From: Pseudomonas sp. DTU_2021_1001937_2_SI_NGA_ILE_001
Lineage (GTDB): Bacteria > Pseudomonadota > Gammaproteobacteria > Pseudomonadales > Pseudomonadaceae
Length of the DNA: 64,000 nt
Direction of reading: 5' to 3'
NCBI RefSeq assembly: GCF_032463525.1
Contig: NZ_CP135971.1
Coordinates: forward strand, 4,216,001-4,280,000
A program made the position numbers and the translations under genes. The first letter of the stretch is position 1, and every line of letters begins with the position of its first letter. The notes beneath the pieces are model-generated. The model was not told where the DNA came from. It searched no databases and saw only the letters and a list, made by a program, of their open reading frames with translations. This document shows positions 46,100 to 49,087 of the stretch, one piece after another.

Positions 46100-46939
46100 A
46101 TGAATTACCGCCACGCCTTCCATGCCGGCAACCATGCCGACGTCTTGAAACATATCGTGCTGACCCGCCTGATTGCGTTGATGTCGCGCAAGGAACAGCC
46201 GTTCGCCTACATCGATACGCATGCCGGCATTGGCCTTTATGACCTGCAGGGTGACGAAGCGACGCGTACCGGAGAATGGGTCGAGGGTATCGGCCGCCTG
46301 TGGGACGCGCCCGACCTGCCAGCGGCGGCGGCCGGTTACATGGAGGTGCTGCGCCACATGAACCGCAAGACCGGCGAGCTGCGCTACTACCCCGGTTCCC
46401 CGGAGCTGGCCAGGCGCCTGAGCCGTGAGCAGGACCGTGTGCTGCTCAACGAGAAGCACCCCGAAGACGGCGCGCTGCTCAAGGACAACATGAAATATGA
46501 CCGCCGCGTTGCCGTGCATCTGGGTGAAGGCTGGCACGTGCCTCGGGCCTTGCTGCCGGTGGCCGAGAAACGCGCGATCATGTTGATCGACCCGCCTTTC
46601 GAGCAGCTCGATGAACTCAAGCGTTGCAGCGTGGCGCTCAAGGAGGCCATCGGCCGCATGCGCCAGACCATGGCGGCCATCTGGTATCCGATCAAGGACC
46701 CGCGCCAGCTCAAGCGTTTCTACCAGGACCTGGCCGAGAGCGGCGCGCCGAAGCTGCTGCGTGTGGAACTGTATGTCCACCCGTTGGAGACCCCGGCCAG
46801 CCTCAACGGCTCCGGCCTGGCCATCGCCAGCCCGCCGTGGGGTCTGGAAGAAGAGCTGCGTGAGTTGTTGCCGTATCTTGCCGAGAAGCTGGGCCAGACC
46901 CAGGGCGGCTGGAAAATGGACTGGCTGATCGCCGAGTAA
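46100..46939 (+). CDS. rlmJ: 23S rRNA (adenine-2030-N6)-methyltransferase RlmJ
   Basis: 279 residues from ATG 46100 with CAGGAG eight bases upstream. The start NYRHAFHAGNHADVLKHIVL is the RlmJ hallmark, and the catalytic motif DPPFEQLDELKR (DPPF, N6-adenine methyltransferase type) is present, with YIDTHAGIGLYDL as part of the S-adenosylmethionine site. It modifies A2030 of 23S rRNA before 50S assembly. It stands alone, with a 277-base upstream gap (45823-46099) that contains no other gene. Confidence 0.95.
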   Translation: MNYRHAFHAGNHADVLKHIVLTRLIALMSRKEQPFAYIDTHAGIGLYDLQGDEATRTGEWVEGIGRLWDAPDLPAAAAGYMEVLRHMNRKTGELRYYPGSPELARRLSREQDRVLLNEKHPEDGALLKDNMKYDRRVAVHLGEGWHVPRALLPVAEKRAIMLIDPPFEQLDELKRCSVALKEAIGRMRQTMAAIWYPIKDPRQLKRFYQDLAESGAPKLLRVELYVHPLETPASLNGSGLAIASPPWGLEEELRELLPYLAEKLGQTQGGWKMDWLIAE

Positions 46940-47003
46940 CACCCGCCCGGGCCGGTAACATCCCGGCCAAAGCCAATACAGTTCGACTAAGCGCTTTGCG
47001 CTT

Positions 47004-47092
47004 GTGGCAGCGAGCTTGCTCGCGAAAGGCTGGCAAAGTCGCTGAGTTTGCTGTGAACGTGACGCCGCCTTCGCGAGCAAGCTCGCTCCCAC
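47004..47092. repeat. Inverted REP pair (class A)
   Basis: Facing arms with core GAGCTTGCTCGCGAA / TTCGCGAGCAAGCTC between rlmJ and the IS element, followed by the short dyad TATTGCGGCTAAAGCCAATA near 47109. The first arm has GTGGCAGC in place of GTGGGAGC. Confidence 0.8.
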
Positions 47093-47144
47093 GGTCTAAC
47101 TGAACTGTATTGCGGCTAAAGCCAATACAGTTCGATCAGACCGG

Positions 47145-47152
47145 GTAGGAGC
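47145..47152. repeat. Left remnant of a class B REP split by the IS110 element
   Basis: GTAGGAGC ends exactly where foreign sequence begins. Joined to the sequence after the element (from 48324), allowing for a shared GC, it rebuilds GTAGGAGCGGCTTCAGCC, identical to the REP ending at 9588 when that is read on the minus strand. Confidence 0.8.
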
Positions 47153-47183
47153 CAACTGTCTTTCACCGAAGATCGACCAACGG

Positions 47184-48113
47184 TCAAATTGCACCCTCTC
47201 GCCATGGTGCACCATCTCGCACCATGGCGTTTAACCTCACCAGCAGGACTCGCATGCACGCCGTCAGCGCCACCTTCGCGCACTTACCTCGGGCGCGAAG
47301 TTGAGCGTATCGGTTCTTGAAGTCCTCGTTGTAACGGACCATCACCAAGGTACTCATGTACATCGCACGGCGTAGCTTCGCGCGTCCGCCGTAAATGTGC
47401 CGGTTACCGCGCTTAGTCCCACTGTCGTTGTTGTAAGGCGCCACTCCTGCCAAGGCCGCCACCTGTCCACGACTCAGATCCCCCAGCTCGGGCAGATAGC
47501 AAAACAGGCTGGAGATCGACACCGCGCCGATGCCTTTGATCGCTTGCAGGCGGTCCACCAAGGCCCCATCGACCTGTCGAGTCTGTGCAGCAATGCGTCG
47601 GTCTGCTGCCTTGATCATCTCTTGGATTTTGGCATTGAGCTCCCGATAGGCCTGCTGCACTTCAGGTTCTTGCGCTTGTTGAATACGGCGACGGTTGTCA
47701 TCACGCTGCTGAACGAAGGCGTCACGCTGGTTCACCAGTTCGGTCAACTTATCGCGCGCTTCATCGGCCACCACAAACTCTTTCTTTCGCAAGGCATGGG
47801 CGAACATGGCCAGCATCTGCGCATCGATCGAGTCGGTTTTGGCTTGCTTGCCCATGGCCAGAGCGAACTGGCGAGCACGCAGCGGATTGATACGCATGAC
47901 CTTGAATCTGGCCTTGGCCAGGAGTTTGACCGATAACCTTTCATAGCCGCCTGTGGCCTCAACCAGTACCTGCTCGACCCGGTTATCACTCAACCATTGG
48001 ATAAGCTGGTGGATTCCTTCAGAGGTGTTGGTGGTGCAGAAGCTATTGCTCTGGGGATACAGCGCAATCTGCAGGGTATCTTTGGCGACATCGATTCCGG
48101 CGTAGGCGGTCAT
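47184..48113 (-). CDS. IS110-family transposase (DEDD/serine recombinase type)
   Basis: 309 residues from ATG 48113. The N-terminal RuvC-like domain has the acidic set Asp8 (YAGIDVAKD), Glu52 (VEATGGYE), Asp94 and Asp97 (KTDSIDAQ). A coiled-coil linker follows (about 118-180). The C-terminal Tnp20 domain (AIKGIGAVSISSLFCYLPEL, LAGVAPYNNDSGTKRG) carries Ser231, the expected nucleophile. Full length with no frameshift, so the element may be active. The enzyme recombines a circular donor with a target chosen by a bridge RNA encoded upstream. Confidence 0.95.
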   Translation of the reverse strand: MTAYAGIDVAKDTLQIALYPQSNSFCTTNTSEGIHQLIQWLSDNRVEQVLVEATGGYERLSVKLLAKARFKVMRINPLRARQFALAMGKQAKTDSIDAQMLAMFAHALRKKEFVVADEARDKLTELVNQRDAFVQQRDDNRRRIQQAQEPEVQQAYRELNAKIQEMIKAADRRIAAQTRQVDGALVDRLQAIKGIGAVSISSLFCYLPELGDLSRGQVAALAGVAPYNNDSGTKRGNRHIYGGRAKLRRAMYMSTLVMVRYNEDFKNRYAQLRARGKCAKVALTACMRVLLVRLNAMVRDGAPWREGAI

Positions 48114-48139
48114 AAGAAAAACCTCTAGGCTTAAGGGCG

Positions 48140-48300
48140 AGAGGTCACTCTGAACGGGCTCACGCTTGTTGTTCGAGGTCGGACTCAGTCAACTGTTCGA
48201 GCTTGGAGTCAGAGTGAAAAGAGTGGATGGCAGTTGGGCTCCTACACGTGCTCCAGGGCACCGCGGCTTAACAGTTGCCATCCACCCCTCTCACCTCTGA
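48140..48300 (-). ncRNA. Predicted IS110 bridge RNA
   Basis: Transcribed toward the transposase. Target-binding loop: stem GTGGATGGCA / TGCCATCCAC (48223-48232 with 48276-48285) enclosing GCTCCTAC (48238-48245), complementary to the left REP flank GTAGGAGC, and GCGGCTT (48263-48269), identical to the right flank. Donor-binding loop: stem TCACTCTGA / TCAGAGTGA (48145-48153 with 48209-48217) enclosing GCTTGT (48164-48169) and CAACTGT (48190-48196), which match the two termini of the element. Guides match opposite strands of each site, as described for IS110 bridge RNAs. RNA ends are estimated. Confidence 0.82.
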
Positions 48301-48323
48301 CTTTACCCTGTCGAAAGACACAA

Positions 48324-48403
48324 GCGGCTTCAGCCGCGAAGCGAGCGCATGTTCACAACAGATGCGCTGAATTTCCTGGCGCTTTCGCGGCTAAAGCCGC
48401 TCC
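48324..48403. repeat. Right part of the REP pair interrupted by the IS110 element
   Basis: GCGGCTTCAGCCGCGAAGC, a linker with GCATGTTCACAACAGATGC, and the facing arm GCTTTCGCGGCTAAAGCCGC. With 47145-47152 it completes a class B pair of the same length and linker type as the pair at 9499-9588 in reverse orientation. The remaining bases up to msrA (48404-48439) show nothing. Confidence 0.8.
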
Positions 48404-48439
48404 AATTACCGAGCCACATGACGGCTGGACCTGTGCCGG

Positions 48440-49087
48440 TCAGGCCGGCATGCACACGCCGGTTCCGCCGATGCCGCAATAGCCCTGCGGGTTCTTCGCC
48501 AGGTACTGCTGGTGATACGCCTCGGCGTAATAGAAGGTGGGCGCCTCGGCGATTTCGGTGGTGATCTCGCCCAGTCCGGCCTTGTCCAGCTCAGCCTGGT
48601 AGCGGGCCTTGCTGGCCAGTGCGGCTTCCAGTTGCTCCGGCTTGGTGCAGTAGATCGCCGAGCGGTACTGGGTGCCGATGTCGTTGCCCTGGCGCATGCC
48701 CGAGGTCGGGTTGTGCAGTTCCCAGAACATCTTCAGCAGCTCTTCGTAGCTGACCACCTCGGGTTCGTAGACCACCAGCACCACCTCGGTGTGGCCGGTC
48801 AGGCCCGAGCAGACTTCTTCGTAGGTAGGGTTGGGGGTGAAGCCACCCGCGTAGCCGACTGCAGTGCTGTGCACGCCTTCCTTCTGCCAGAAGCGGCGCT
48901 CGGCACCCCAGAAGCAGCCCAGGCCGAAGAGGGCGAATTCCACGCTGCCGGGGAAGGGGCCGAGCAGGGGGTTGCCGTTGACGAAGTGCTGTTCCGGCAC
49001 CTGCATCGGTGTCTCGCGGCCCGGCAAGGCTTGTTCGGCAGTTGGCAATACGTTCTTGTTCACCAGGATTTCCGAGCGCAGGGTCAT
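48440..49087 (-). CDS. msrA: Peptide methionine sulfoxide reductase MsrA
   Basis: 215 residues from ATG 49087. The active-site motif [10 protein letters not shown] holds the catalytic Cys58, and the resolving region [17 protein letters not shown] supplies the C-terminal cysteines. It reduces the S-epimer of methionine sulfoxide using thioredoxin. The extra N-terminal 45 residues (relative to the shortest MsrA proteins) are usual for Pseudomonas. No signal peptide, so cytoplasmic. Downstream of the GGDEF/EAL gene in the same direction, 134 bases away. Confidence 0.96.

Follow-up and report, generated by a model that had tools for sequence, protein, structure and literature searches.

The window analysed here, a 64,000-nt stretch of Pseudomonas sp. 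contig NZ_CP135971.1, carries an insertion sequence of the IS110 group whose recombinase is very probably aimed by a bridge RNA that the element itself encodes, with repetitive extragenic palindromic (REP) sequences as its targets. This reading rests on the anatomy of the element, its copies in the host genome, the agreement between guides and insertion sites, their co-variation among relatives, and compensatory change in the RNA stems. The features are collected in Table 1.

Table 1. Features of the IS110 element and its immediate flanks, in window coordinates
Feature	Position	Strand	Basis or comment
IS110-group insertion sequence	47152..48322	-	1171 bp plus one CT core copy; common ends of host copies, Pfam/NCBIfam
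REP half at right end (right target)	47145..47149	+	Sequence, host copies
Core dinucleotide at right-end junction, AG (+) = CT (-)	47150..47151		CT common to relatives' target and donor
IS110 transposase/recombinase, 309 aa	47184..48113	-	Pfam, NCBIfam, IS621 alignment
Candidate -10 of antisense RNA, TAGGCT, without a good -35	48126..48131	+	By eye
Predicted two-loop bridge RNA with putative ends	48136..48297	-	Stem covariation, covariance model, fold
RF02234 (sX15) full-length match, antisense strand	48136..48300	+	33.8 bits, below the gathering score of 55
Donor-binding loop	48145..48217	-	Stem 48145-48153/48209-48217
Candidate donor-loop handshake guide CG	48163..48164	-	Complementary to target CG
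Right donor guide ACAAG, donor CTTGT	48165..48169	-	Match to element end
Left donor guide ACAGTTGACT, donor ACAGTTGGCT	48187..48196	-	9/10 matched
Target-binding loop	48223..48285	-	Stem 48223-48232/48276-48285
Candidate target-loop handshake guide CC	48237..48238	-	Complementary to donor GG
Right target guide GTAGGAG, core AG included	48239..48245	-	Match to flanking REP
Left target guide AAGCCGC	48263..48269	-	Match to flanking REP
-10-like TAAAGT	48300..48305	-	With TTGGCT across the circle junction, 17-nt spacer, 8/12 sigma-70-like, weak
Core dinucleotide at left-end junction, AG (+) = CT (-)	48323..48324		CT common to relatives' target and donor
REP half at left end (left target)	48325..48338	+	Sequence, host copies

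The transposase has both of the domains expected from Pfam, PF01548 (N-terminal; DEDD, RuvC-like) and PF02371 (C-terminal, with the conserved serine), each above its cut-off, and scores 202.6 bits against the NCBIfam model NF033542, “IS110 family RNA-guided transposase” (cut-off 140). Among solved structures, only the transposases of IS621 and ISCro4 match it by sequence at E 0.001. Its D7, E51, D93, D96, and S230 align with D11, E60, D102, D105, and S241 of IS621, respectively, numbered with a chain offset of +2 inferred in this analysis; the roles of these residues in the IS621 active site are those given in PMC11208158. Non-coding DNA within the element amounts to 209 nt upstream of the transposase gene (tnp) and 32 nt downstream, which is the layout of the IS110 group (long upstream, short downstream; the IS1111 group has the reverse). 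REP-like palindromes of several classes flank the element (window 46980-47120 and 48324-48405), and its neighbours are what we take to be an rlmJ-like gene (46100-46939) and an msrA-like gene (48440-49087).

The element is present eight times in the host genome, whose two contigs total 5.66 Mb: seven copies are full and one is internally deleted. All end at identical bases and occupy the same 13-bp site; read on the transposase strand (AAGCC/GC...GC/TCCTAC), the left flank is AAGCCGC and the right flank (GC)TCCTAC in eight of eight. A covariance model of the RNA region finds eight matches in this genome, coinciding with the eight copies. The deleted copy (C1:548958-549404; L008, L187) keeps both ends, the whole RNA region, and a guide-matched site, with single-base differences in the target-loop stem and in the apical hairpin. 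No near match to the element was found among 72,556 plasmid records, from which those closest to the host genome are possibly absent. Nor was a clean empty orthologous site found at the 16 of 20 msrA loci examined (15 Pseudomonas relatives plus the window): the five plus-strand loci with rlmJ alongside have a gap of 107-178 nt, without the element and without AAGCCGCTCCTAC, and the minus-strand loci L165, L170, and L174 are uninformative on this point.

The intact, perfect 13-mer occurs at 172 sites in the host genome, compared with 7 for the reversed pattern; for the next REP class, CTCGCTCCCAC, the numbers are 80 and 1. The chance of finding all eight insertions in the 172-site class rather than the 80-site class is about 0.05, so the host genome alone poorly separates guide specificity from REP specificity. 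Measured against all 459 CGCTCCYAC words the chance is about 0.0005; many of these must be chance words, since the reversed control has 242. Eight of eight copies in REPs could also reflect a transposase protein that recognises REP DNA itself, with the element's 5′ REP-like words being captured REP fragments, or serving in mRNA regulation only. The 5′ region of ISPpu9 does regulate tnp translation, according to PMC8450116. The evidence that bears on this alternative comes from related elements, and it is taken up again with them.

Upstream of the transposase gene, a preliminary description of this sequence had placed two stem-loops, each enclosing two short guides: those of the target loop were said to match the REP words on either side of the element, and those of the donor loop the element's own ends. 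Its stem coordinates are right to the base, and both sets of matches are exact, base for base. On the plus strand, the arms of the target-loop stem are GTGGATGGCA (48223-48232) and TGCCATCCAC (48276-48285); the words in this loop are GCTCCTAC (48238-48245) and GCGGCTT (48263-48269), and the flanks are GTAGGAGC (47145-47152) and GCGGCTT (48324-48330). The arms of the donor-loop stem are TCACTCTGA (48145-48153) and TCAGAGTGA (48209-48217), and the words between them GCTTGT (48164-48169) and CAACTGT (48190-48196). Read on the transposase strand, the predicted RNA has the target loop first, then the donor loop. Each loop also has a candidate handshake guide, a concept taken from PMC11208158.

Guides of 5-8 nt, recognised post hoc in a region of 210 nt, invite the suspicion of coincidence, the more so as the word lengths for the shuffle test were chosen after the match had been seen. 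Single guide words do recur, each in 0.4-6.7% of 100,000 dinucleotide shuffles of the upstream region. Both target guides together are found in 0.003% of such shuffles, and all four guides in order in none; together with the permutation tests over relatives described below, this makes over-reading of chance words scarcely credible as an explanation.

One element of the preliminary description has to be replaced, namely its GC core. In the window, target and donor share GCT, which leaves GC and CT indistinguishable there. L110, L116, and relatives whose sites read ...CCCCT or ...CCCT share CT and not GC between target and donor (the elements that speak against GC are L081, L093, L096, L100-L102, L110, and L116). 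From these shared bases CT, or AG on the plus strand, is the better placement, and it can be placed as the shared core in 15 of 15 guide types, with the sites typed by hand. CT is the core of IS621 as well (PMC11208158), and ISPpu9 is described as leaving an AG repeat, which is CT on the opposite strand (PMC8450116). With the core placed there, ACAGTTGACT becomes the left donor guide, facing ACAGTTGGCT in the donor. The window's guides have matching core letters in the right target guide and in both donor guides, while the left target guide matches the first letter only; throughout the window's clade, the left donor guide has one mismatch, beside the core.

The predicted fold depends on how much upstream sequence is included. 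For 48143-48288 (minus strand), without the upstream arm, both loops are present in the minimum-energy structure (z -2.96, with none of 200 shuffles as good), and three relatives folded in the same way give z -3.57, -2.62, and -1.48. For 48130-48325, with the upstream arm, the structure of lowest energy (z -2.45, equalled or bettered by 6 of 200 shuffles) retains the target-loop stem; the 5′ arm of the donor-loop stem pairs upstream instead, so that the donor loop is unformed.

Comparative evidence for the stems comes from an alignment of 21 upstream regions (A3), in which 99.3% of the 586 cells for the 28 stem pairs are paired; for slid versions the figure is 42.2% or less. (Two other alignments were made: A1, with 24 of the 28 distinct upstream regions plus L151, leaving out L003, L016, L043, and L048; and A2, with 15.) Of the 28 pairs, 10 have changes on both sides; shuffles average 3.9, and none of 500 is as high, although such shuffling leaves the relatedness of the sequences in place. 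The count of further pair types does not exceed that in shuffles (12, compared with 14.8). Compensatory changes, whose absence the preliminary description had said would tell against it, are thus present in both stems.

Related elements were sought in 298 Pseudomonas genomes, plus named genomes, and 24 of the 298, host included, matched at E 1e-50 or better. Of 120 locus rows, a fixed hairpin anchor allowed 85 to be parsed, into 11 guide types (some copies were fetched twice); in the other rows the anchor, an end, or a flank is missing, or the locus is cut by a contig end. Across these types the right guide matches its site at 8 of 8 bases in ten cases and 7 of 8 in one, and the left guide at 3 to 7 of 7. 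Reassigning guides to sites at random gives a permutation p of 5e-6 for the cognate assignment (200,000 shuffles). With eight types picked by hand as distinct, 2 of 40,320 permutations are as good, the true assignment included. None of 200,000 is as good for 15 types (L106, L110, L116, and L118 added), nor for 11 distinct targets, of which 8 are the single best for their cognate guide. The 15-type test uses guides typed by hand, with the registers of L093, L110, and L116 set by hand and that of L106 apparently one base off; L108/L109, the sX15-type elements discussed below, and other unparsed loci were left out of all the permutation tests.

Individual cases illustrate how closely guide and site change together. 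The G018 type has guides ATTCGC/GTGGGAG and sites ATTCGC/CTCCCAC in six of six copies, and L066, of this type, keeps the guide match though its flank outside the guide is no longer REP-like. In L081, from P. massiliensis, one additional base is found in the right guide and the right target alike. L116, whose transposase has an in-frame TAG, has right guide ACTGTAG at site CTACAGT, and donor guide ATAAG with end CTTAT. The left guide of L110 (from G188) is TGTGCCCT; five of the six copies (L110-L115) are at TGTGCCCT and L115 is at TGTACCCT. L110 has one mismatch in its right guide, and its donor guide ACGGTTG, read in L110 alone, matches the end ACGGTTG. In near relatives the donor-side words are invariant, with matched changes in L110, L116, and, by eye, sX15-type elements: apparent co-variation on the donor side rests on these few distant elements. 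As for the putative handshake, position 7 pairs on the target side in 15 of 15 types, where both letters are invariant, so that this is agreement and not co-variation, and on the donor side in 11 of 15; position 6 pairs in 10 of 15 types on the target-loop side and 13 of 15 on the donor-loop side.

These relatives bear directly on the possibility that the transposase protein recognises REPs. Guide words follow the site from element to element (the extra base of L081; L110 and L116) while the surrounding RNA is conserved, and words matching the donor ends as well are not what REP capture would give. In favor of protein recognition is G165, in which the site has changed and the guide has not: in all three copies (L100-L102) the left guide ...GCCCGA faces ...GCCCCC(T), mismatched at t7 and t8. 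G219 and G121 have the same guides as G165, but at ...GCCCGC, where t7 matches. The mismatch may have been tolerated, or the guide may have drifted after insertion. G165, with guides found also in elements at another site, moves protein recognition slightly up and the bridge-RNA reading slightly down; taking all of this together, protein recognition seems very unlikely. The guide assignment made in the preliminary description stands insofar as the guides co-vary with their sites and eight of eight host copies are at the site the guides spell, with G165 running against it. Non-REP sites with unchanged guides, which were to count against the assignment, have no clear instance among the 85 parsed rows; G165, at a REP variant differing at t7, comes part of the way to one.

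Agreement is also incomplete at particular positions and in particular elements. On the left target guide, t8 is unmatched in G219/G121, G165, G158, L050, L118, and, in the register adopted for it, L106 (register shifts would alter this count by one type), and the core T (t9) is matched by the left target guide in just 2 of 15 types. The left donor guide matches neither core base in 10 of 15. Three types, P. hunanensis (L050), G165, and L106, score higher with a non-cognate site than with their own, and in L108/L109 the anchor picks out a guide that disagrees with the flank.

By analogy with IS621, the element would leave its site as a circle with its ends joined as ACAGTTGG-CT-TGTGTC (junction sequence ACAGTTGGCTTGTGTC), and the junction would supply a promoter for the bridge RNA. 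The target loop (AAGCCGC, GTAGGAG) would then pair with both strands of the REP site AAGCCG-CT-CCTAC, the donor loop (ACAGTTGACT, ACAAG) would pair with the circle junction, and the recombinase would exchange strands at CT. REP specificity would in such a cycle be written in the RNA. Expression of the RNA, formation of the circle, and catalysis are steps that we infer from the analogy. As to the promoter, joining the ends in silico gives TTGGCT-17-TAAAGT, which is the best-scoring place in 14 of 27 distinct junctions (another place is best in 13), and all 25 rows of alignment A1 keep the TA...T of its -10. Scanning the inserted form for consensus sites yields no promoter and a single terminator-like site, at the REP flank, no more than in shuffles. 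A promoter across the circle junction is at most suggested by these observations.

The plus strand of the same region has a full-length match, if one below the gathering score, to Rfam RF02234 (sX15), an annotated Xanthomonadaceae sRNA; the strand is opposite to that of the predicted bridge RNA. A search for the family found it in 1 of 274 gammaproteobacterial genomes, in 6 of 17 genomes of that genome's genus, and in 26 of 149 of its family, where 16 of the 26 exceed the cut-off. Thirty-six sX15 loci (L151-L158, L213-L240) were checked, out of 9 and 54 rows of matches. In 26 of the 36, an IS110 tnp lies on the opposite strand and begins 19-32 nt away from the 5′ end of sX15; such loci make up 19 of 26 above the family cut-off and 7 of 10 below it. 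Five others are cut by a contig end, and five have no clear adjacent tnp: L218 has a tnp start by eye only, L222 and L223 have none, L236 matches partially, over 66 nt, seemingly within a gene, and L239 is the first of a tandem. The bridge-RNA model R1, built from Pseudomonas only, matches the opposite strand at 8 of 8 and 22 of 28 sX15 loci, weakly at L222 (E 0.003) and L223 (E 0.006), and the left flanks of several sX15-type elements agree by eye with the left guide (e.g., TAACGCCT, TCGGCTCT). We conclude that sX15 is the antisense strand of IS110 bridge-RNA loci: either an antisense transcript like Asr9 of ISPpu9, or a family drawn on the other strand. A literature search returned nothing linking sX15 to IS110; sX15 was met there as a table entry for Herbaspirillum. 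The link suggests that an Rfam sRNA family whose role is unexplained is part of the biology of IS110 elements.

An antisense sRNA of the Asr9/sX15 type, controlling tnp translation, might instead be the main product of the upstream region, with the sense loops just its complementary structure. Beyond the full-length match on the plus strand and the tnp opposite it in 26 of 36 sX15 loci, a TANNNT word precedes the sX15 start by 3-7 nt in 16 of 20 inspected loci (out of the 36), and by eye is present at the matching place in 20 of 22 Pseudomonas elements; this stretch partly complements the ribosome-binding site, and it has no evident -35. In ISPpu9, Asr9 is reported from S1 and Northern analysis (PMC8450116). 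As the main product such an RNA is extremely unlikely, leaving both the guide-target co-variation and the fixed-strand pairing of the guides unexplained. It is compatible with a bridge RNA, and both may exist. A tentative proposal, in which we have somewhat less than even confidence, is that bridge-RNA loci from Pseudomonas to Xanthomonadaceae have a conserved antisense promoter, from which an RNA against both guide loops would titrate or gate the bridge RNA; sX15 and Asr9 would be that RNA, and some sX15 units would outlive their transposase.

Some loci have an unusual arrangement. L222 (91 bits) and L223 (84 bits), from two genomes of one genus, are sX15-type units with no transposase found alongside, at which left-end-like sequence remains; possibly these are orphan units, of bridge RNA or of antisense RNA, comparable to ssr9 in ISPpu9. 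L239 has tandem sX15/R1 matches before one tnp, and L118 a second R1 match upstream of its left end. Within Pseudomonas, R1 has matches in 12 of 149 genomes, host included. Among 11 R1 loci inspected in a search for orphans, six are cut at contig ends, four have a tnp or a remnant of one, and L194 (G126) has no tnp match.

IS110 elements with bridge or seeker RNAs, and with REP targets, have already been published (PMC11208160, PMC11187229); a literature search for bridge RNAs together with REP sequences turned up two Nature papers and no others. The window element is, on good evidence, a further example of this published mode of REP targeting and not a new kind. What its relatives offer is a natural data set, in which related elements have seemingly been re-aimed among REP variants and other sites through a few RNA bases; a native element in multiple copies, with all four guides readable, should be useful for testing how bridge RNAs evolve toward new targets.

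Of the described systems, IS621 of E. coli, a member of the IS110 group, resembles the window element in transposase family, active-site residues, CT core, and REP target (PMC11208160, PMC11208158). It is likewise described as having its RNA upstream of tnp, with the target loop before the donor loop (an order taken here from base numbers in PMC11208158) and guides on opposite strands. The transposase similarity is distant (95 bits) and the guides are different; the predicted RNA is about 150-160 nt in the window element, compared with about 177 in IS621 (PMC11208160). Full core pairing in the left guides, described for IS621 in the same source, is absent from most of the Pseudomonas relatives.

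ISPpu9, ISPpu10, and ISPa11 can be likened to the window element by description. As described in PMC8450116, ISPpu9 of P. putida KT2440 shares membership of the IS110 family, a long tnp 5′-UTR, location of all copies (seven) in REPs, and an AG direct repeat. An antisense RNA is reported over its 5′-UTR, with a possible counterpart in the window by position only, and ssr9 lies downstream of tnp in five of its seven copies (PMC8450116), where the window element has only 32 nt. For ISPpu10 and ISPa11, guides are predicted in Extended Data of PMC11208160, and co-purification of the ISPa11 RNA is reported in PMC11187229. Both resemble the window element in having RNA-guided site choice proposed for them and in their REP sites (for ISPpu10, according to a cited title); ISPa11 differs in being of the IS1111 type, with its RNA downstream of tnp (PMC11187229).
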